Shown here piece after piece: positions 179 through 43,217 of a stretch of DNA of 43,446 bases. A program made the translations under genes and the position numbers. The DNA comes from Acidobacteriaceae bacterium. Lineage in GTDB: Bacteria > Acidobacteriota > Terriglobia > Terriglobales > Acidobacteriaceae. The stretch is from positions 1 to 43,446 of the forward strand of contig DAHXOQ010000003.1 of the NCBI GenBank assembly GCA_027364815.1, given 5' to 3'. The notes under the pieces are model-generated. The model was not told the origin of the DNA and made no database searches. It worked only from the letters and a program-made list of their open reading frames with translations. Positions within the stretch are counted from its first letter, which is position 1. Every line of letters starts with the position of its first letter.

Positions 179-1444
179 TTATAACCTTCCGCGGTACGCC
201 CAGAGGCCGAGTCCGGGGTTGGAAATATAAAAAACTTCCTCGCCATTGATGAGGTTTTTGCCCTGGTTCATTTTCTCCGGGTTGTATTGCTTGAGCATCT
301 CGCCGAGTGGCCGGTAGGCAAATCCGACGCTTGTGATTTCATCGGAAGAGAGTTTGCCCGGAGACCATGTGATTTTGAAGCGACCTTCGGATGAGCCATG
401 GATTAAGTGAGCCGCCGCGCTCAGATTAAGAGCGAGTTCCTCGTCGCATTCAACGGCGCGCAAAGTTGCCTCGGTACCCTTGTAACCAAATTTGCGAATC
501 AAGCGGTCGATGACCGCGTCTTCACCAAACTCTCTGACGCCGGGCGCGAGAATGATGAGCTCGGCGTCATCGGCCAGCGCCATGCGGGTTCTATAGACAG
601 CCTTGTTGCCGATCCACGTTGAATGGTACTCGGAAGGATGGAGATAGACCACGGCCTTACGAATAGGTTCGTCGACAATTTCAAAATTGACCGCCAGGCT
701 CAATGCAGCGGCGCGCTCAAAACATTCGATATCGTCGCCGATAAACAATCCGCGCACGGCAAGGCCATTTTGCTTTTTTCCAACCACGGTGAGCACATAA
801 ACGATGGGTAAACCCTGTGCGAAGTGATCGCTGGCATAGTTGAGGATTCGTCGGACAGGCGTATCTGCGCGCCCCATCATGCGCTCCATGCCGTAGACCG
901 CACCCAGAAAATGCGTGCGGTGAATGCCCAGAACTCCGCCCGTGCCAACGAAAATGTTCTTGTTGAAGTTGGCCATGCCGATGACTTCATGCGGCACCAC
1001 CTGGCCGATGGAAAGAATCAGGTCAAAGCCGCCGTTCGCAATATGATGGTTGACCTGTGCGGGCCAGGGAAAGTTCAGCTTGCCCTCGGATTGCAGGTGA
1101 ATATATTCAGCCGGAACTTCGCCGAGAGTCACAATATCCTTGCGCCAGTTGTGTTCGAGGAAAAGTTCTTTTGGCGTTGCGCCGAACATGCCGGAGATTT
1201 GCTCCGCAGTCATTGGCGTGTGCGTGCCTAGCGCGGGCAAAACAGCTTTCACGCGCGACCCGAAATGTTGCCATGCGAATTCGGTCAGTTCGCCTGCCCG
1301 CGAGTGTTTGCGGCTCTGGTCGGGGGGAATCAGAAGCACACGCTGACGTGAACCCATGAGATTGAGAGCCTGAACCAGATGCTGATTCAAATCATCGAGT
1401 GTCAAATCAGTTTGAGGAGTTCCGATTGCGCAATACAAACTCAT
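179..1444 (-). CDS. LarA-family (DUF2088) nickel-pincer-nucleotide-dependent racemase/epimerase homologue
   Basis: 421 aa; GTHTPMT, VPHEVIG, NFNKN and GIHRTH motifs give H75/H152/K162/H178; K162 and H178 keep the 10- and 16-residue spacings of LarA H174-K184-H200; ATGA overlap with upstream MFS gene. Confidence 0.8.
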   Translation of the reverse strand: MSLYCAIGTPQTDLTLDDLNQHLVQALNLMGSRQRVLLIPPDQSRKHSRAGELTEFAWQHFGSRVKAVLPALGTHTPMTAEQISGMFGATPKELFLEHNWRKDIVTLGEVPAEYIHLQSEGKLNFPWPAQVNHHIANGGFDLILSIGQVVPHEVIGMANFNKNIFVGTGGVLGIHRTHFLGAVYGMERMMGRADTPVRRILNYASDHFAQGLPIVYVLTVVGKKQNGLAVRGLFIGDDIECFERAAALSLAVNFEIVDEPIRKAVVYLHPSEYHSTWIGNKAVYRTRMALADDAELIILAPGVREFGEDAVIDRLIRKFGYKGTEATLRAVECDEELALNLSAAAHLIHGSSEGRFKITWSPGKLSSDEITSVGFAYRPLGEMLKQYNPEKMNQGKNLINGEEVFYISNPGLGLWAYRGRL

Positions 1445-2712
1445 AGCGTCACCTCCACTCGTTTGAGGCCTGGAGCGAACAAGTTCAAAAGGAAAAAAGC
1501 AAGCATATAAGCGCAGCCGGCAATGATAAAGAGTGTTGTATAACTACCCGTAAGGTGAAGGATGTAGCCGGCATAATTCATCAGCAAGACTCCACCTAAA
1601 GCTCCGGCCATGCCTCCGATGCCAGTGATGGAACCAACAGCGCGCTGAGAAAACATGTCTGATGCGGTTGTGTACAAGTTGGCACTCCAGCCCTGATGAG
1701 CCGCTGCGGCAAGGCTCAGCAGCGCGATAGAAAACCATTCATTTTGAACCGAGTTCAAAGCGAGAATGGGCAGAACCAGAAAAGCGCAAACAAGCATGGC
1801 GAGCAGACGCGCACGCGATATGGACAACCCCAACTTGCAAAAAGGAGAAGGCAACCACCCGCCGCCAATACTGCCGATTGTGGATGCACTGTAGACAATA
1901 ATCAAAGGCAATCCGAGATGCGAGAGGTCCAGATGATACTTCTGGCTGAAGAAAGAAGGAAGGTAAAAGAGAAAGAACCACCAAATGGGGTCGGTTAAAA
2001 ACTTGGCAATCGAATAGCCCCATGTCTGGCGGAGAAAGAAAAGTTTTCTCCAACTGATGTTCCGGCGGGGAAGATCCTGAGGAGAAATTTCACTCAAGGT
2101 GTAATCAACAGAGGGTTTTCTGTAGTGGCGGAACCACCAGAAGATCCATAGCGCGCTGAAGCCGCCTGTAGCCAGGAATGCCGCGTGCCAGCCATAGTGC
2201 AAAGTAACCCAGGGCACAATCAGCGGGGCAAGTATGGCTCCGAGGTTGGCTCCAGAGTTGAAGAGCCCGGTGGCCAGGGCGCGCTCTTTCTGAGGAAACC
2301 ATTCGGAGACGGTTTTAATGGCTGCGGGGAAATTACCCGATTCGCCGAGTCCCAGAGAAAAGCGTGCAACGGCAAACTCTGTAACTGTATTGGCCAGCGC
2401 ATGACTCATGGCGGAGAGACTCCAGAGTCCCATGATGACCATATAACCTATGCGCGTGCCCACACGGTCAACGAAGCGCCCGGCCAAGAGCAAACCCAAT
2501 GCATACGCCGCCATAAATCCGCCCATGATGTGGCCGTAGCTCAACTCAGTGAGGCCGATGGTCTGCATCAAAGTGGGTTTCAAGATAGCAATAACCTGGC
2601 GATCCATATAGTTGATGGATGTGGCGGCGAAGAGCAGAAAGCATATCTTCCAGCGCATTGAACTGGATTGCTGCGCCGAGCCAGCGTCCGATTGATTGCT
2701 TTGCCAAACCAT
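1441..2712 (-). CDS. exuT: MFS transporter, hexuronate (ExuT-like, ACS family)
   Basis: 423 aa, ~12 hydrophobic segments; INYMDRQVIAILKPTLMQ...GESGNFPAAIKTVSEWFPQKERALATGLFNSGANLGAILAP typical of ACS/hexuronate transporters; sits between uxaC and larA-like. Confidence 0.8.
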   Translation of the reverse strand: MVWQSNQSDAGSAQQSSSMRWKICFLLFAATSINYMDRQVIAILKPTLMQTIGLTELSYGHIMGGFMAAYALGLLLAGRFVDRVGTRIGYMVIMGLWSLSAMSHALANTVTEFAVARFSLGLGESGNFPAAIKTVSEWFPQKERALATGLFNSGANLGAILAPLIVPWVTLHYGWHAAFLATGGFSALWIFWWFRHYRKPSVDYTLSEISPQDLPRRNISWRKLFFLRQTWGYSIAKFLTDPIWWFFLFYLPSFFSQKYHLDLSHLGLPLIIVYSASTIGSIGGGWLPSPFCKLGLSISRARLLAMLVCAFLVLPILALNSVQNEWFSIALLSLAAAAHQGWSANLYTTASDMFSQRAVGSITGIGGMAGALGGVLLMNYAGYILHLTGSYTTLFIIAGCAYMLAFFLLNLFAPGLKRVEVTL

Positions 2713-2725
2713 GTGCCAGTATCCT

Positions 2726-4123
2726 CTAGAGCCGGTACGCGTTTTTCACGAGCCTGGTGGTTAATTCCTGCGCCAGGTCAAAAGCTTCATCTTCATCGAG
2801 CCGATGCTCAACCACCAATTTGGCGAGAAATGCACAGTCAACGCGCCGGGCAACATCGTGCCGTGCGGGAATGGAGAGAAAAGCGCGCGTGTCGTCATTG
2901 AAGCCAACAGTATTGTAGAAGCCCGCAGTCTCGGTGGCGTGCTCGCGGAAGCGCATCATTCCCTCAGGACTATCGTGGAACCACCAGGACGGGCCCAGCC
3001 TCAGGGCTGGATAATGGCCGGCCAATGGAGCAAGTTCACGACTATAAGTTGATTCGTCGAGTGTGAAGAGGATGATGGTTAATGAAGGCTCATTGCCAAA
3101 TTGATTGAGCAGCGGACGCAGGGCGTCAACATAATTTGTGGCACGAGGTATATCAGCGCCGACATCGCGGCCATAACGCTGATAGATTTTTTTATTGTGA
3201 TTGCGAACGCTACCGGGATGAATCTGCATCACGAGTCCATCATCGAGGCTCATCCTCGCCATTTCAGTCAGCATCTGGGCGCGGAAATTTTCCTGCTCAT
3301 CGGAGGTGGCGTTCCCGGAGAGCACACGGGCGAATAATTGTGCGGCCTCGCTTTCGGGAAGATTGGCAGTTTGCGCAGTAGGATGACCGTGGTCGGTTGC
3401 CGTGCATCCCATCGACTTGAAACGCTGACGCGCAATGCGCAATGCCTGCAAATAGCCGCGCCACCCACTGGTGTCTTCTTGGGTCGCCTGGCCGAGTTGC
3501 GCAATTGATTCCGCGAATCCCGCGTATTCAGGGTCAACGACCGGATCAGGCCTGAAGGTTGGCAGAATCCGCGCATTCCACCCGGAGTCGCGTATCGCCT
3601 GATGATATTCAAGTGTGTCGAGTGGCGAATCTGTTGTGGCAAGCACTTCCAGGCGAAATCTCTCGTAGAGCGCGCGGGGCAGATATTCCGGCTGGTTGAG
3701 TTTTTCCGAGATGATGTCGTAATAGTCATCCGCGTTCCCGGCTGAGAGCCGCTCATTGAGGCCGAAGAGTTCTTGAAATGCATAATCGAGCCAGAGTCGC
3801 GTTGGTGTTCCTCGAAACAAATGATAATGGGTTGCAAAGATGCGCCAGACCTTGCGGGGATTTTTGAGCTCAACAGCGCCAATCTCGAGGTCATCGAGTG
3901 AAACGCCCTGACTGTAGAGCATGCGGTAAACATAATGATCGGGCGAAACAAAGAGTTGCGCGGGATTAGGAAACGGATGATTCAAAGCAAACCAGGCTGC
4001 CTGCGTATGACCATGAGGGCTGATGATAGGCAAATGCCGGACGCTCGAGTAGAGTGCGCGCGCGATTTTTCTGGTTTCCTGATCTGCGGGGAACAAACGG
4101 TCTTGGTGAAGCGGCATTGGCAT
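2726..4123 (-). CDS. uxaC: Glucuronate/galacturonate isomerase (uronate isomerase)
   Basis: ISPHGHTQAAWF, RVDCAFLAKLVVEHRLDEDEA and overall UxaC architecture; start re-assigned from 4189 to 4123 because GGAGG lies 5 nt before ATG (GGAGGTCGCAATG) and the promoter/operator lies in the longer ORF. Confidence 0.9.
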   Translation of the reverse strand: MPMPLHQDRLFPADQETRKIARALYSSVRHLPIISPHGHTQAAWFALNHPFPNPAQLFVSPDHYVYRMLYSQGVSLDDLEIGAVELKNPRKVWRIFATHYHLFRGTPTRLWLDYAFQELFGLNERLSAGNADDYYDIISEKLNQPEYLPRALYERFRLEVLATTDSPLDTLEYHQAIRDSGWNARILPTFRPDPVVDPEYAGFAESIAQLGQATQEDTSGWRGYLQALRIARQRFKSMGCTATDHGHPTAQTANLPESEAAQLFARVLSGNATSDEQENFRAQMLTEMARMSLDDGLVMQIHPGSVRNHNKKIYQRYGRDVGADIPRATNYVDALRPLLNQFGNEPSLTIILFTLDESTYSRELAPLAGHYPALRLGPSWWFHDSPEGMMRFREHATETAGFYNTVGFNDDTRAFLSIPARHDVARRVDCAFLAKLVVEHRLDEDEAFDLAQELTTRLVKNAYRL

Positions 4124-4147: not shown

Positions 4148-4160
4148 GTGGTCTGACCAC
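4148..4160. promoter_or_regulatory. Candidate GntR/FadR-type operator at uxaC promoter
   Basis: Perfect 13-bp palindrome GTGGTC-T-GACCAC immediately downstream of TATAAT (4166-4161, minus strand); identical copy at 6227-6239. Confidence 0.75.
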
Positions 4161-4189
4161 ATTATACATAGATTTCGGTGTTCTGCCAT
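4161..4189 (-). promoter_or_regulatory. Candidate sigma70-type promoter of uxaC operon
   Basis: Minus strand ATGGCA (4189-4184), 17-nt spacer, TATAAT (4166-4161). Confidence 0.6.
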
Positions 4190-4262
4190 ACTTAAATACT
4201 GCCGGCTATCAACATCGTCAGCGCGACTTTAAAACAGGCAAGCGGATTGCGCCGGTCAGTCA

Positions 4263-5060
4263 ATGAGAAGAGCCGATAATGATGTTATGCTCAAGACGAA
4301 CCAATTTAAAAGCATGAACCCATCAACCACCAAAAAGCCGGCAGAGAAGCGCACGCAGCAAGATCCTCAACTCTCCATGCAAGTGGTCAATCATATACGC
4401 AGGCTGGTTGAGAATGGAAAGCTCAAGCCCGGGGACAAGTTGCCGCCGGAGCGGGAACTTGCGCAGAAGCTGAAAATCAGTCGAGCCTCGTTGCGTAGTG
4501 GTATTGGTTATTTGGCGGCAACCGGAGTTTTGAAAGTGCGTCACGGCGTTGGCGCGTTCATTGCCGACGGCCCGCCGGCCTTTGCCATTACATCCTTCAA
4601 CCTGATTGGCGCCCTGCATGGATTCCAATCCTGGCAGATGTTTGAGACTCGATTGATTCTGGAATGTCAATTGGTTGCGCTGGCGGCTGAACGCAGCAAA
4701 CAGGAACATCAAATGGCGTTGGCGGAGGAAGTTGCGGAGTTGTTTGCCGCACTGGATCGACCCACGGACTTTCTTGTTCACGACATGAACTTTCACCGCA
4801 TCCTGGCCCAGGCTTCGGGAAATCCTGTGCTCGCCGCAATCATGGAAACACTCACGGTTGCATTTTATAAGGAGAGAAGTAAAACGATAGAGCATGCAAA
4901 AGATATGCGCGAGGCCGCCGCGATGCACCGTCTGATTTTCAAAGCCGTATGTGCCCGCGATGCCGAGAAGGCTCGCACCTTGATGGAGCGCCACTTAAGC
5001 GCATCAATGGAAGCGCAAAGCGCTGAGAAACAAAAGCGCCGCACATCATCCAGTCGATAA
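4263..5060 (+). CDS. GntR family transcriptional regulator, FadR/FCD subgroup
   Basis: GKLKPGDKLPPERELAQKLKISRASLRSGIGYLAATGVLKVRHGVGAFI wHTH plus FCD-type C-terminus (HDMNFHRILAQASGNPVLAAIME). Confidence 0.88.
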   Translation: MRRADNDVMLKTNQFKSMNPSTTKKPAEKRTQQDPQLSMQVVNHIRRLVENGKLKPGDKLPPERELAQKLKISRASLRSGIGYLAATGVLKVRHGVGAFIADGPPAFAITSFNLIGALHGFQSWQMFETRLILECQLVALAAERSKQEHQMALAEEVAELFAALDRPTDFLVHDMNFHRILAQASGNPVLAAIMETLTVAFYKERSKTIEHAKDMREAAAMHRLIFKAVCARDAEKARTLMERHLSASMEAQSAEKQKRRTSSSR

Positions 5061-5083
5061 TTCCAAATCTGACAGTGCGTGAA

Positions 5084-6166
5084 TCAGCGCTGGATGCGCG
5101 CCGAGCCACCTCGTGCAAAAGCCTGCACCTGCTCTAAAGTCGCCATTGTAGTATCACCCGGAAATGTAGTAAGCAACGCACCGTGCGCCCAGCCTAAACG
5201 GACCGCCTCTTCGGGTGATGTCTCGTTGAGAAGACCGTAGATCATCCCGGAAGCGAAGCCGTCACCGCCGCCAACGCGGTCATACACGTTGAGTTCCGCT
5301 GTAGGAGCGGTAATTGTTTTTCCGCCGACCCAGGCTACTGCGCTCCAGCTATGGCGGTTTGTTGAGTGCACCTCGCGCAGAGTTGTTGCCACAACTTTGA
5401 TGTGCGGATGCTTTTCAACAACTTGTTCAATCATTCCAAAGAATGCCGAGGAATCAAGCTTAGATTTGGCTTCGACCTGCGGCCCGGCAATGCCAAGCCC
5501 TTTCTGCAGATCCTCTTCATTCCCGACAAGGACATCGACGTTTTCAACAATGCCGGCAATTGTTTTGACCGTATTTTCATTGCCTCCTGCGATCTTCCAC
5601 AATTTCTCACGGAAGTTCAGATCGAAGGAAGTCACGGCACCGGCAGCTTTGGCCTCGCGCATCATCTCGGCAGTCAATTGGGCAGTGGTCGGAGAGAGAG
5701 AGGCAAAAATGCCCCCGCTGTGAACCCACTTCACGCCGCGCGAGAAAATCTTTTTCCAATCAAAATCTCCAGGGCGCAACAAAGCGGCCGCCTCGTTGGC
5801 GCGATTATAAAAGACCACAGGCGCGCGTACGCCGAAACCCTGATCACTGTAGACGGTAGCCATATTGGGACCATTGACGCCGTTATGCTCGAAATGCTTG
5901 TAGATGCCCAGCACACCCTGGCCGCGGACACGTTCCGCAATCAGTTCGCCTATGGGGTAACTGCTCATGGCGGAGGCAATAGCCGTGCGCATCCGGAAAC
6001 AATCCGCCAGATTGGCCGCAACGTTGTATTCACCGCCGCTGACGTGTATCTGGCAGGTGGTTGCTTTTCGGAATGGAATAATTCCAGGATCAAGCCGGTG
6101 CACAATCGCGCCGAGAGAAAGAAAATCGAGATCGGCATCATTGCGTAGATTGAACAGATTGCCCAT
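5084..6166 (-). CDS. kdgK: PfkB-family sugar kinase, 2-dehydro-3-deoxygluconokinase-like
   Basis: C-terminal DRVGGGDGFASGMIYGLL PfkB signature and N-terminal SGGEYNVAANLA; start placed at 6166 (MGNLFNL, upstream GGAGA), excluding promoter/operator. Confidence 0.75.
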   Translation of the reverse strand: MGNLFNLRNDADLDFLSLGAIVHRLDPGIIPFRKATTCQIHVSGGEYNVAANLADCFRMRTAIASAMSSYPIGELIAERVRGQGVLGIYKHFEHNGVNGPNMATVYSDQGFGVRAPVVFYNRANEAAALLRPGDFDWKKIFSRGVKWVHSGGIFASLSPTTAQLTAEMMREAKAAGAVTSFDLNFREKLWKIAGGNENTVKTIAGIVENVDVLVGNEEDLQKGLGIAGPQVEAKSKLDSSAFFGMIEQVVEKHPHIKVVATTLREVHSTNRHSWSAVAWVGGKTITAPTAELNVYDRVGGGDGFASGMIYGLLNETSPEEAVRLGWAHGALLTTFPGDTTMATLEQVQAFARGGSARIQR

Positions 6167-6226
6167 GTTGAGAGTTCTCCTTGTCTGCTGCAGCAATTTG
6201 GAAAGTAAGGTAAAAAAGTGCTGCAA

Positions 6227-6239
6227 GTGGTCTGACCAC
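6227..6239. promoter_or_regulatory. Candidate GntR/FadR-type operator in kdgK-like/gnd divergent region
   Basis: GTGGTCTGACCAC, identical to 4148-4160 and in the same position relative to the minus-strand -10. Confidence 0.75.
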
Positions 6240-6268
6240 ATGATATATTGTGTCATAGAAATTGCCAA
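6240..6268 (-). promoter_or_regulatory. Candidate sigma70-type promoter of kdgK-like gene
   Basis: Minus strand TTGGCA (6268-6263), 17-nt spacer, TATCAT (6245-6240), operator immediately downstream. Confidence 0.65.
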
Positions 6269-6303
6269 TAGGTAATTTGTATTTTCAGCATGGAGAAGAA
6301 AAA

Positions 6304-7212
6304 ATGCAGCTTGGATTGATTGGATTAGGCAAGATGGGCGGCAACATGGCCGAGCGTTTGCGTTTGAGCGGTCATCAGGTGGTTGGCTTTGATTTCAACG
6401 CCGATGCGGTGGCGAAGCTGACAGCGAGCGGCAATGTTGGCGTGAACTCGCTCGATGGGTTGGCGGAGAAGCTGACTGGCCGCAAGGCGATTTGGATCAT
6501 GGTGCCGCAGGGCGATCCGGTGGACCAGACGATTGCGAAGCTGCTGCCGCTGCTCAGCAAGGGCGATATTTTGATTGACGGCGGCAACTCTAATTACAAG
6601 GATTCGATGCGCCGGCATGCGGAACTCACGGCGAAGGGATTTTGCTTTGTGGACGTGGGCACATCGGGCGGCGTGTGGGGATTGAAGGAAGGCTACAGCA
6701 TGATGATTGGCGGCGATGAGGAACCGGTGCAATATTTGACGCCAATTTTTGAAGCGCTGGCGCCGGCGCAGGAGAGCGGCTGGGGGCGCGTGGGCCCGGC
6801 CGGCGCGGGGCACTTTGTGAAGATGGTGCACAACGGCATTGAATACGGCATGATGCAGGCATATGCCGAAGGCTTCACGATTATGGAGAAGAAGGAGCAG
6901 CTCAACCTGAATCTGCCACAGATAGCCGAGATATGGCGGCACGGGAGCGTGGTGCGGAGCTGGCTGCTGGATTTGACCGCCGAGGCGCTCAAGGAAAATC
7001 CGGCGCTTGATGGATTAGAGGCGTATGTTTCGGATTCAGGCGAGGGGCGATGGACGGTCTTCGAGGCGATTGATTTGAACGTGAGCGCGCCGGTGATTAC
7101 GGAGTCACTGCTGCGGCGCATCCGCTCGCGCGAGGAGAACAACTTCACGGATCGCATGCTGGCAATTATGCGGAATGCATTTGGCGGGCACGCGGTGGTG
7201 AAGGGCAAGTAG
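6304..7212 (+). CDS. gnd: 6-phosphogluconate dehydrogenase, decarboxylating, short (NAD-type) form
   Basis: GLIGLGKMGGNMAERL Rossmann motif, IDGGNSNYKDS, VDVGTSGGVWGL, GAGHFVKMVHNGIEYGMMQAYAEGF; acidic D in FDFNADAV suggests NAD preference. Confidence 0.88.
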   Translation: MQLGLIGLGKMGGNMAERLRLSGHQVVGFDFNADAVAKLTASGNVGVNSLDGLAEKLTGRKAIWIMVPQGDPVDQTIAKLLPLLSKGDILIDGGNSNYKDSMRRHAELTAKGFCFVDVGTSGGVWGLKEGYSMMIGGDEEPVQYLTPIFEALAPAQESGWGRVGPAGAGHFVKMVHNGIEYGMMQAYAEGFTIMEKKEQLNLNLPQIAEIWRHGSVVRSWLLDLTAEALKENPALDGLEAYVSDSGEGRWTVFEAIDLNVSAPVITESLLRRIRSREENNFTDRMLAIMRNAFGGHAVVKGK

Positions 7213-7332: not shown

Positions 7333-8925
7333 TTAATACTTTCCTTCCAGTAATTCGTTCGTTCCATCAGGCAATTTGCTGCAATTCATAACTTGCGCGT
7401 GTTTGATACCGGCGGCGTCGAGTGCCGGCGCATTCATTGGCAAGCGCAGATTATTGATCCGCAACTGATCCACATCGCGCGCCCAGATGGCAGGACGCTT
7501 ATCAGGCGCAATGAGGCGAACCTCAATGTTGCGCAAAGCGAGGTTGCTGACGTGGCGCAGCAAGAATCCTGTTGCAGGTATTGCGCCGAACATCTCGGGC
7601 TCGGGATATTTAGCTTCCAACTCGGCGGGCAGGAGCGCGGCCATTGCACTATCCCCGCCTCCCACCTGCTCAAAGAAGCAGTCGCTGATCTGAATGTCTT
7701 CGATGGGGTGGTTTGGAATGCCAGCGAGGATGGATGGTATCTGACCTGCGCCGGAGCTAGTGATTTGACTGATAAGGATGCGTCGAATGGCTCCGATGGG
7801 GGTAGCGGCGGGGGCGCGCATGCGGCTTCCCAATCGCATGAAGATGGGCGCGCTGCGAACATCGCGCATGCTGATGTTGGTGATGGTAATGTCTTCACAG
7901 ACGGCGCCGTCAACGCTCTCGATGGCCACCCCGCGGCAACTTTCAAAGACACAATTATCAATGGTGATGCGCCTGAATCCGCCGTTCGATTCGGTTCCGA
8001 GCTTGATACGGCCGGTGGGGGGCCAATGGAGATCAGTGACTGGTTGCCATGTGGCATCAGCAACGGAACCAAGCGCGTAATTTCCGGTGACAAAACAATT
8101 GGAGATGGTTACGTCTTCAGTTGAGCGCAGAGAGCCGAGTGCATAGGAGCTTTTGAGGCAGATTCCATCATCCCAGGGAGTGTTGACCGTGCAGTTTGAG
8201 ATGCGCACATTTCGGCAGCAATCAATATCCATGCCGTCGCGGTTTGAATCGATGGTGAGATGGTCGACGATGATATTGTCAACGCCGGTGGCGAGAATAC
8301 CGAACCAGCCACCTGCTTTGATGGTGAAATCGCGCAGCAACACATTACGGCAATTCTTGAGAGCGAGCGCTTTACTGCCAATGCCAGGCCGCGCCGGGTC
8401 GGGTCCATTTTTTTCAAATTTAAAACTGCGCGTTAAACCTTGCCCCCAGATCATACCGGGGCCGGTAATGGAGATGTCGTTGAGACCATCACCCCAGAGC
8501 AGCGAATTGTGCCAGTGATTGTGCCCGAAGTCCTGATAGGCTTCGCCGGTTTCGTTGTGCGGTTCAGCAGGGTCGTAACCTGGGTCGTTGTCGGTAGCCG
8601 GATTTTCAGCGGCTAGAATCACGGCCCCGTGGTCAAGATACAACCCCACATGGCTTTTAAGGTGAATCGAATAGGAGCGGTAAACTCCGGCAGGAAAGAA
8701 GACCGTGCCACCGCCGGCATCAGCTGCGGCCGCAATGGATTTGTTGATGGCGGCTGTGTCAAGGGCGAGACCATCGCCTTTGGCGCCCATTGCGCGAACA
8801 TTCCAGATGGCGGCTTGGCCGCTTGCAGACGGCAGCAATTGGTTGAGGAAAGTTTGTGAGCGAACGGGGATGGCGCCGGCTACCGCAGAGGCTAATCCCC
8901 ATCGCAAAAATTCTCTTCTTCGCAT
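7333..8925 (-). CDS. GH28-like polygalacturonase / parallel beta-helix protein, exported
   Basis: MRRREFLRWGLASAVAGA twin-arginine-like signal; WNVRAMGAKGDGLALDTAAINKSIAAAADAGGGTVFFPAGVY; beta-helix repeats; start moved to 8925. Confidence 0.82.
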   Translation of the reverse strand: MRRREFLRWGLASAVAGAIPVRSQTFLNQLLPSASGQAAIWNVRAMGAKGDGLALDTAAINKSIAAAADAGGGTVFFPAGVYRSYSIHLKSHVGLYLDHGAVILAAENPATDNDPGYDPAEPHNETGEAYQDFGHNHWHNSLLWGDGLNDISITGPGMIWGQGLTRSFKFEKNGPDPARPGIGSKALALKNCRNVLLRDFTIKAGGWFGILATGVDNIIVDHLTIDSNRDGMDIDCCRNVRISNCTVNTPWDDGICLKSSYALGSLRSTEDVTISNCFVTGNYALGSVADATWQPVTDLHWPPTGRIKLGTESNGGFRRITIDNCVFESCRGVAIESVDGAVCEDITITNISMRDVRSAPIFMRLGSRMRAPAATPIGAIRRILISQITSSGAGQIPSILAGIPNHPIEDIQISDCFFEQVGGGDSAMAALLPAELEAKYPEPEMFGAIPATGFLLRHVSNLALRNIEVRLIAPDKRPAIWARDVDQLRINNLRLPMNAPALDAAGIKHAQVMNCSKLPDGTNELLEGKY

Positions 8926-9027
8926 CACACAATCCATCACTTGCTGCATGTTTTCACAATGCACGTTGAAGTCGGTTAAATGTGCCACAGCTCATCCTAT
9001 AGCACTTCATAGCCCATGAGACGGAGA

Positions 9028-15770: not shown

Positions 15771-16208
15771 GCAGAGGCAGATTCGATCTGCATTGTGTAC
15801 ATCTGATAAATCACTAAATTTCACGAAGCGTTCTCGCTTTAGCCTTGTGCGAAGATCTGGATGGAATCATTCAGGTGTAAGTTGGCTCTTGTTGCGCAGC
15901 CATCACTGGAGAGAGGCTTACATAGCATAGAGGTGAAATCGTTCGCGGGCTACAGTGCCCCATTGTCTGAACTGTTTTGCTCATTATGAATTCAGCGGAT
16001 TGCGGAAGTAAGCGATGTAAACAAAGAAATCATTGACAAAACTTTAGGTTAAAGATAATTATCATAGGCAGCCTCAATCGATTCTTCAGCACACCAAACA
16101 TATGCAGGCATGGGCCAGCGGAAGACCACCGTTGCGCGCCGGACTCTGAATTCCGACCAAAATTTACGAAGTCCACTGCTAATGAAACCCACAATTTTAG
16201 GAGAAGCC

Positions 16209-18506
16209 ATGCAGCTTACTTGGATAGGACGGTACGTTTTCAGCGCATTGAACAGTGGAGCCAACGAATCTCAGAAACAGGCAGCGACTCGCCGTCACGT
16301 CGTGAATCGACTTTTTGTGATACTGCTGGCCGTAGTAGCCTCCTCAATACTTGCCGGGTGCGGGGGGAGCGCCTCAAAGACTGTCACACTGGAGGCCGCA
16401 CCGTCCACAATATCGATCACGCCCGGAGGAGCACCCCAGGCGATGACCGTGATCGCCGTACCGGCGAACGGGTTTTCGAGCCCCGTGCAGGTTACGCTGA
16501 GTACACTACCCACTGGAGTCACGGCAACGCCTTCTACGCTTACTTTAACGCCTGGGACGCTGGGGCAAATCATGCTGTCGGTCGCTTCCAACGCCACACC
16601 GGGAAGCACGAAAATCACACTGACAGGAACAGCGAGTACATTGACGCAGAATGCGACTTCCATTTTGGCAGTGGGTGCACTTCCGCCACCTATGACCTCG
16701 GCAACGTTGAGCAATACGTTTTTTGACTTCGGCGACAATCTGGTTAACAATCCGCTGACGCAGACTGTGGCCGTGGTGACCAATACAGGCCCAGACACAC
16801 TAACGATGAATCCGGTTTTGACGGGCGATGCAAGCTACGTGATCGTGGCCAACCAATCGTGCGGCGCGACACTGGCGCCTGCTGCTACCTGCAATATGGT
16901 TCTCAGCTACGATCCTTCCGTTGCGTCGGCGCCGAATGAGCAGAATGCGGTTCTGAATATGGGCTTTGGTGACGTTTCGGCAGCAACGCCACAAACGGTG
17001 TCAATCACCGGAACTTCGGCGATGATGCCCACTGGCACGGTGACAGCCACGGATAATCCCCAGGTAGCTCTTTACACCATGACACTTCCGTTCCCGGGCA
17101 GCATGACGGTGCAGTTTGGTCCGACAACGGGGTACGGGCTCAATACGTGGTCGCAATCGACGGATACGGCAGGCGGCACGGTGAGCATTTTTGTAGCGGG
17201 TATGAAGGCCAGCACTTCTTACCACATGGCAGCGACAGTTCAGTTTTCAAACGGCATTACTGCGACCGACACGGACCATACCTTTACGACGGCAGCGATA
17301 CCTTGGAGTTTCAATCTCAACCTGACGACCACAACCACCCAAGGCATGACGCCGCAATCGGGGCTTGAGTTGTTGAACCCGTTGAGTGGCGTAGTTGTGA
17401 CGGATCTCTCCGGCAACATTCTGTGGACATATCAAGATCCGAGTGACGGAAAAGTTGAATTCATGCAGGGCGTGAAGATGTTGCAGAATGGCGATATTCT
17501 CTTGAACATTGGTGTCTCGAATGCAATCCCGCTGCAGGGCTCGATCCCCCCAAATGCATTTGTTGAAATACGCGAGGTGAACCTGGCCGGGGACACGGTG
17601 CGGGAAATAACGATGAACGACCTGAATTCGGAACTGGCCACTGCCACGTGCGATGAATGCCATGTCACACTTCAGACCTTTCATCACGACGTGACTCCAT
17701 TACCGAATGGCCATTGGCTGCTGCTGGCCAATACTCTCAAGTATCTGTCGAGCACGACGACACCGCCTTTGACAAATGCACCTCCAGAGACCGTCCTGGG
17801 GGATGTGATTATAGATCTGGACCAGAATCTGCAACCCGTGTGGGTATGGAACGAATTCAATCATCTGGATCCCAACCGGCACCCCATGAGCTTCCCTGAC
17901 TGGACGCACACGAATGCCATCATTTACTCGCCGGATGATGGAAACATATTGGTTTCGATCCGGCACCAGAACTGGGTGATCAAAGTGGACTATGAGGACG
18001 GAACCGGCGACGGGAATGTCTTGTGGCACCTTGGCGAGGGCGGCGACTTCACGCTGGCCGGCGGAACGGATCCAACTGACTGGCAATACGCGCAGCATGG
18101 ACCTTCGTTCTTCAGTCCGAACCCGAGCGGCGTCTTCTCCCTGGGATTGATGGACAATGGAGACGACCGCCTGTTTCCTTCAGGCGTGACTTGTGGGGCC
18201 CAGGGAGCACCACCGTGTTTGTATTCGACGGTTCCGGTTTTCCAGATCAATGAGACCGGGAAAACTGCGACGTTGACCTTCCATCAGATCATTCCAGCCG
18301 CACAATACAACCTCTGGGGCGGAAACGCAGAGCAACTCGCGAATGGGAACGTGGAGTACGATCTCTGTGGCGTTGGTTCCAACTCGTATGTAAATGAGGT
18401 TACGCAGGAAGCTAATCCCCAGACGGTTTGGAACATGACTTCCACTGGTGTGAATCTGTATCGTGCATTTCGGATTCCGAGCTTCTACCCTGGTGTGCAA
18501 TGGTAG
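16209..18506 (+). CDS. Arylsulfotransferase (ASST)-like lipoprotein with N-terminal Ig-like/choice-of-anchor domains
   Basis: Lipobox ILAGCGG; TLSNTFFDFGDNLVNNPLTQTVAVVTNTG domain; ASST features WTHTNAIIYSPDDGNILVSIRHQNWVIKVD...GNVLWHLGEGG; SD AGGAG before ATG 16209. Confidence 0.75.
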   Translation: MQLTWIGRYVFSALNSGANESQKQAATRRHVVNRLFVILLAVVASSILAGCGGSASKTVTLEAAPSTISITPGGAPQAMTVIAVPANGFSSPVQVTLSTLPTGVTATPSTLTLTPGTLGQIMLSVASNATPGSTKITLTGTASTLTQNATSILAVGALPPPMTSATLSNTFFDFGDNLVNNPLTQTVAVVTNTGPDTLTMNPVLTGDASYVIVANQSCGATLAPAATCNMVLSYDPSVASAPNEQNAVLNMGFGDVSAATPQTVSITGTSAMMPTGTVTATDNPQVALYTMTLPFPGSMTVQFGPTTGYGLNTWSQSTDTAGGTVSIFVAGMKASTSYHMAATVQFSNGITATDTDHTFTTAAIPWSFNLNLTTTTTQGMTPQSGLELLNPLSGVVVTDLSGNILWTYQDPSDGKVEFMQGVKMLQNGDILLNIGVSNAIPLQGSIPPNAFVEIREVNLAGDTVREITMNDLNSELATATCDECHVTLQTFHHDVTPLPNGHWLLLANTLKYLSSTTTPPLTNAPPETVLGDVIIDLDQNLQPVWVWNEFNHLDPNRHPMSFPDWTHTNAIIYSPDDGNILVSIRHQNWVIKVDYEDGTGDGNVLWHLGEGGDFTLAGGTDPTDWQYAQHGPSFFSPNPSGVFSLGLMDNGDDRLFPSGVTCGAQGAPPCLYSTVPVFQINETGKTATLTFHQIIPAAQYNLWGGNAEQLANGNVEYDLCGVGSNSYVNEVTQEANPQTVWNMTSTGVNLYRAFRIPSFYPGVQW

Positions 18507-42832: not shown

Positions 42833-43217
42833 GTGATTACTCCTTTGTCTGTTCTATTGACGTTGCTTTGCTCGGTTTGTGCGCTGCTCTTTCAAAACCC
42901 TGAAAAAGATGCTCATTTTTCTGTGACGCATTAGGAGTGAAAAAAGTTCATAGAACTGAAGGTAAGATTCCTGAAAATCCCATAATCTGACCCATTCTTG
43001 CCACTATCCAGCCACTCCGCAGAGTACATTTCCGTGGTCAGACCCTCTGCATCCATACACTCTATCACCGCTCCGTTAGCATGAAGCGTATCGTTTGGAA
43101 CGTGTATTCCCTTAGTTAAGTCCTCGCCTTCAGCAGCCGATTGAATCTCCCCGCTGCTACAATCATTTTGGCGCGATTAGCAGTCTGTTCCCCAGCTACA
43201 CCTCGCCACGGAACGCC

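Follow-up and report, generated by a model that had tools for sequence, protein, structure and literature searches.

Two identical copies of a 13-base palindrome, GTGGTCTGACCAC, occupy the gntR-uxaC and kdgK-gnd spacers of the DNA analysed here (43,446 nucleotides in all, hereafter "the window"), and are most probably operators of the FadR-subfamily GntR regulator encoded between them, which would repress the uxaC-MFS-larAH operon and kdgK by covering their transcription start sites (probability about 0.88, from sequence comparisons). The pair adds a well-supported member to a familiar type of switch, in a genome whose gene families suggest that it belongs to the Acidobacteriota.

Gene context and promoter-operator geometry

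Behind operator 1, the minus strand carries an operon of uxaC, an MFS transporter gene and a gene for a LarA-like hexonate epimerase (Table 1), the last of which (179-1444) closes the operon and is kept there in many relatives. The ATG of uxaC at 4123 follows GGAGG, AAGGAGA precedes the kdgK start at 6166 and GGAGAAG that of gnd at 6304, while for gntR a further in-frame ATG lies upstream at 4263 and homology begins near 4314. The PfkB-type kinase is, judging from its sequence, most likely a 2-keto-3-deoxygluconate (KDG) kinase (kdgK). Beyond gnd, no operator of its own was found for the GH28 gene of the window (7333-8988). An arylsulfotransferase (ASST) family protein of 798 amino acids is also encoded near the pectin genes (window positions 16110-18506).

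Table 1. Genes, candidate operators and proposed promoter elements of the locus (window positions).
Feature	Position	Strand	Evidence and remarks
LarA-like nickel-dependent putative hexonate epimerase, group 18	179..1444	-	NF052594, 617.7 bits (cut-off 500)
MFS transporter	1441..2712	-	best match D-galactonate transporter family TIGR00893, 211 bits, below cut-off 395; PF07690
uxaC, glucuronate/galacturonate isomerase	2726..4123	-	NF002794, 579.8 bits
Candidate operator 1, GTGGTCTGACCAC	4148..4160	.	gntR-uxaC spacer; centre 4154 is the predicted uxaC transcription start
-10 hexamer TATAAT, uxaC promoter	4161..4166	-	preceded by TG (TGTATAAT)
Proposed -35 ATGGCA, uxaC promoter	4184..4189	-	weak, not conserved
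gntR, FadR-subfamily regulator (GntR wHTH + FCD)	4314..5060	+	PF00392, PF07729
PfkB-type sugar kinase (probable kdgK)	5084..6166	-	PF00294; KDG/KDGal kinase models match below cut-offs
Candidate operator 2, GTGGTCTGACCAC	6227..6239	.	kdgK-gnd spacer; centre 6233 is the predicted kdgK start
-10 hexamer TATCAT, kdgK promoter	6240..6245	-	-10/site adjacency inconsistent among kdgK orthologs
Proposed -35 TTGGCA, kdgK promoter	6263..6268	-	sequence reading
gnd, 6-phosphogluconate dehydrogenase	6304..7212	+	NF007161 and TIGR00872 above cut-off; divergent from kdgK
GH28 rhamnogalacturonidase	7333..8988	-	NF049898, 626.6 bits (cut-off 500); pectin context

A sequence-only reading of this DNA had placed the 13-mer at 4148-4160 and 6227-6239 with a FadR-type GntR gene between the copies, and both the coordinates and the gene (4314-5060) were verified. 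A genome-wide scan of the draft assembly (3,055,755 bases, ~80% complete, so that further targets may be missing) retrieved two exact copies of GTGGTCTGACCAC, both in the window. With up to two mismatches the window yielded five strand matches, four of which come from reading the two sites on either strand (shuffles: mean 0.6, maximum 3); a weak site at 43034 was judged not convincing. Neither was the next-best genomic match (GTGGTTTGACCAC, one mismatch, at C254:56) retained as a further site; it lies inside an open reading frame.

On the minus strand, each palindrome directly follows a -10 hexamer (ending at 4161 and 6240, respectively), and each hexamer is paired, as had been described, with a -35 across a 17-nt spacer (ATGGCA/TATAAT at 4189-4161; TTGGCA/TATCAT at 6268-6240). 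A transcription start predicted 7 nt past the -10 coincides in each case with the central base of the palindrome (4154 and 6233), which agrees with the earlier suggestion that the palindrome lies over the expected start. Operator 2, at nearly the middle of the kdgK-gnd spacer (6167-6303, 137 nt, centre 6235), also shows the single mid-spacer site in a divergon that is a feature of the FadR subfamily. One detail had to be corrected: the core shared by the two modules had been written with ...TCTGACC..., but the palindrome read on the minus strand is GTGGTCAGACCAC, with A as its central base, and the core is TAT[A/C]ATGTGGTCAGACCACT.

The -10 abutting the operator is a conserved module before uxaC. 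When upstream sequences were aligned on the most upstream site before this gene (n = 32), a TATNNT hexamer, usually within TGTATACT or TGTATAAT, ended 0-4 nt before the 11-mer in 24, vs. 0.8 expected from shuffling the upstream 40 bases. The -35 boxes, which had been read as part of a shared promoter-operator module, are not conserved (TTG at the -35 distance in 2/32 of the uxaC upstream sequences) and were set aside, such that only the -10/operator part of that proposal stands. In several genomes, for example at L102, L079, L082, L066, L070 and L072 (genus g61), two sites in close tandem lie upstream of uxaC with the first abutting a -10, and these may possibly act as a cooperative pair.

Mechanistically, a dimer of the regulator would bind TGGTCNGACCA through its two winged helices and, lying over the transcription start, would keep RNA polymerase from transcribing the uxaC-MFS-larAH operon and kdgK, a block expected because each operator covers the start just past a -10 hexamer. 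The divergent gntR and gnd might be blocked by the bound regulator as well, and gntR would then be autoregulated. A uronate or uronate-derived acid held in the FCD domain would release the regulator from its operator. Position alone is not proof of repression, as FadR-type regulators can activate some promoters (FadR itself among them), and in some kdgK orthologs (L153, L165) a -10-like sequence stands downstream of the site, as might be expected if the protein were an activator or a dual regulator. We regard this as improbable, however, given that before uxaC in most genera the site is downstream of the -10 and abuts it, where a dimer would block polymerase.

The site and its targets in relatives

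An ortholog of gntR is present in 142 of the 399 genomes of the family. Leaving out the window's own genome, the exact 13-mer was found in 52 of the 141 genomes with an ortholog vs. 21 of the 257 without (p-value 5e-12; Fisher p-values here take genomes as independent and ignore kinship, the uxaC sites spanning 11 genera), while the reversed sequence, used as a control, had no such link (12/141 vs. 28/257, p-value 0.82). The motif is thus tied to the regulator gene, and not equally common at random loci, the latter being the outcome that had been named in advance as refuting the proposal. Many of the 89 ortholog-bearing genomes without an exact 13-mer carry forms with one mismatch.

An unbiased count gave the same motif: among all 5-base inverted repeats with spacers of 0-7 upstream of 52 non-redundant gntR orthologs, TGGTC-N1-GACCA ranked first, with 11 exact copies (at most 2 for any repeat in shuffles) and copies with up to one mismatch in 30 of the 52 (0-1 in shuffles). 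Separately, one genome (G413) holds 25 exact copies of GTGGTCTGACCAC, but these share ~50 flanking bases and represent a dispersed repeat rather than a large regulon. Ten of the 25 (L212-L221) were recorded as loci, and the copy examined adjoins unrelated genes of trehalose-synthesis type.

With up to one mismatch allowed, a site lies within 200 nt upstream of uxaC in 15 of the 19 neighbourhoods that hold a gntR ortholog, vs. 0 of 30 for uxaC genes (~69-77% identity) from genomes without it (p-value 2.5e-9), and sites of the operator 1 type are kept before uxaC in 11 genera. Among kdgK orthologs (72-81% identity), most of which are on a different contig from gntR or distant from it, 13 of 20 have an upstream site (exact in eight) and seven have none, vs. 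0 of 10 kdgK paralogs (p-value 0.001). Where uxaC is elsewhere, the site can precede an MFS gene adjoining gntR (L088, L104, L111), and in relatives it also stands before GH28 genes (L095, L098, L101, L102, L105, L120, L121, L122) and genes for TonB-dependent receptors (L094, L096, L097, L099, L101, L122). Because of these last two groups, the sites appear to delimit a pectin/uronate regulon, much like that of Thermotoga UxaR. The suggested comparison with uronate genes was thus borne out, and the "local" regulon of the sequence-only reading describes the window's genome, whereas in relatives the sites reach distant kdgK, GH28 and receptor genes.

The position of gnd is less clear. The gene is divergent from kdgK in the window's genome only, among those examined; its orthologs at 28 loci, two congeners included, have neither a site nor an adjacent kdgK, and in the two congeners gnd follows a different reading frame with no site upstream. 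As the arrangement is seen solely in the window's genome, gnd was not accepted as a proven target, and its control can only be inferred. Still, gnd would be a reasonable target of operator 2, since in Thermotoga its membership of the regulon is plausibly explained by mannonate being epimerised to gluconate, which enters the pentose phosphate pathway (PMC7583248). This epimerisation is carried out by LarA groups 19 and 20, while for group 18, which includes the window's enzyme, a hexonate substrate is predicted (PMC7583248).

Regulator protein and DNA-contact residues

Its domains (GntR wHTH PF00392, 60.1 bits, cut-off 27; FCD PF07729, 86.9 bits, cut-off 24.3) place the gntR product in the GntR family and, by this sequence evidence, in the FadR subfamily of FCD regulators. 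The consensus of this subfamily is TKGT/ACMA with GT and AC 3 nt apart (PMC4494728), to which the palindrome (TGGT-CTG-ACCA) conforms in both bases and spacing, and the earlier statement that GGTCnGACC-like palindromes are known for the subgroup is consistent with this. Helix-turn-helix residues Arg28, Ser40 and Gly59 have been linked to one base of the box being G/C (PMC4494728), and Arg, Ser and Gly are also found at the corresponding alignment positions of the window protein. Contact residues were taken from an alignment with E. coli FadR, with letters checked against 1hw1: Arg28, Arg38, Arg42 and Gly59 correspond to R35, R45, R49 and G66 of FadR, and are conserved among gntR orthologs.

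Across relatives, the residues at these contacts vary with the presence of the site. The contact set R,S,R,A,S,R occurs in 50 locus records (39 genomes), and in every one of them a site lies no more than 2.5 kb from gntR, vs. a chance background of 3/21, 4/30 and 2/28 at control loci. When S-S replaces A-S, a site lies within that distance for seven of ten regulators (none at L108-L110), and for P-T, S-T or G-E regulators for none of four. Three regulators of 43-46% identity with altered recognition helices (P-T, G-E; L114, L115, L116) have no TGGTCNGACCA nearby, but two of them (L114, L115) still adjoin a KDG kinase gene, for which reason a different operator is expected there.

These data also bear on whether the palindrome could serve another GntR/FCD regulator of the genome, with the neighbouring gntR controlling something else. 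The draft holds two other full-length FCD paralogs (on C251 and C191, 30% and 28% identity) and FadR-subfamily motifs resemble one another (PMC4494728), but neither paralog shares the aligned contact residues or has a site at its own locus, and the site follows the gntR ortholog, being absent before uxaC where the ortholog is absent (0/30) and present in every neighbourhood whose ortholog has the same residues (50/50). We consider this reading very improbable, a little more so than activation. As for two copies arising by chance with no regulatory role, promoter-like hexamers alone are indeed no commoner in the stretch than in shuffles (3 vs. 2.2), but this negligible alternative is already refuted, at any reasonable threshold, by the comparative tests: the site is conserved before uxaC in 11 genera and before kdgK orthologs in other genomic regions, and the palindrome is top-ranked among inverted repeats.

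Relation to known systems

The regulator that we favour as the ligand of both palindromes resembles E. coli FadR in its DNA-binding half, where Arg35, Arg45, Arg49, His65 and Gly66 (FadR numbering) are kept, Thr44, Thr46 and Thr47 are replaced by Ser, Ala and Ser, and the operator has the same TGGTC-N-GACCA-type architecture. It is unlike FadR in overall sequence (21% identity), in its FCD pocket and in its unrelated targets, and FadR models score 48.5 and 44.4 bits against it (cut-offs 189 and 249). The pocket has Asp157, His161, His205 and His227 present in the alignment, and an Asp with three His in an FCD domain is of the metal-binding type. Sequence similarity to Thermotoga UxaR is only distant: the FCD structures 3fms and 3sxy, presumably of Thermotoga proteins, match the window protein weakly (E ~1e-7; 1.2e-7 for 3fms). 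ExuR and UxuR of E. coli are likewise FCD regulators of hexuronate genes including uxaC, and ExuR sites share the 3-nt GT-AC spacing of the window palindrome (PMC4494728), but scores far under the cut-offs of the NCBIfam equivalogs (57.7/396 and 59/442 bits) rule out that the window protein is either of these.

By gene content, the closest likeness is to UxaR (TM0439) of Thermotoga maritima, a GntR-family pectin/galacturonate regulator with multiple operator copies whose regulon includes the exopolygalacturonase pelB, gnd, the LarA-type epimerase gene gntE and a kdgK operon (PMC3750489). In the window, gnd, kdgK, a LarA-like hexonate epimerase gene and a GH28 gene surround the regulator, but uxaC is inside the proposed regulon, whereas in Thermotoga it is KdgR that controls uxaC. 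Binding of UxaR to its operators was seen in vitro, and none of the hexuronates or intermediates tried released it (PMC3750489), for which reason the inducer of the window regulator should not be guessed.

It is tempting to speculate that this regulator governs pectin and uronate use throughout the family as a master switch, acting through operators ahead of the genes for uronate isomerase, KDG kinase, GH28 enzymes and TonB-dependent receptors, that its UxaR-like gene set was reached independently, and that changes at recognition-helix positions 46/47 (FadR numbering) accompany operator loss; we hold this tentatively, at slightly less than even odds. The main published survey of GntR motifs lists no Acidobacteria (PMC4494728). 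For the use of plant cell-wall acids, the present locus supplies an operator, a regulator and a regulon that can be tested, and its relatives offer a small natural series of regulator-operator co-variation, in which A-S, S-S, P-T and G-E helices occur with and without the site. Finally, the presence of a group-18 LarA epimerase inside a uronate operon narrows the likely substrates of this enzyme to the hexonates of that pathway.
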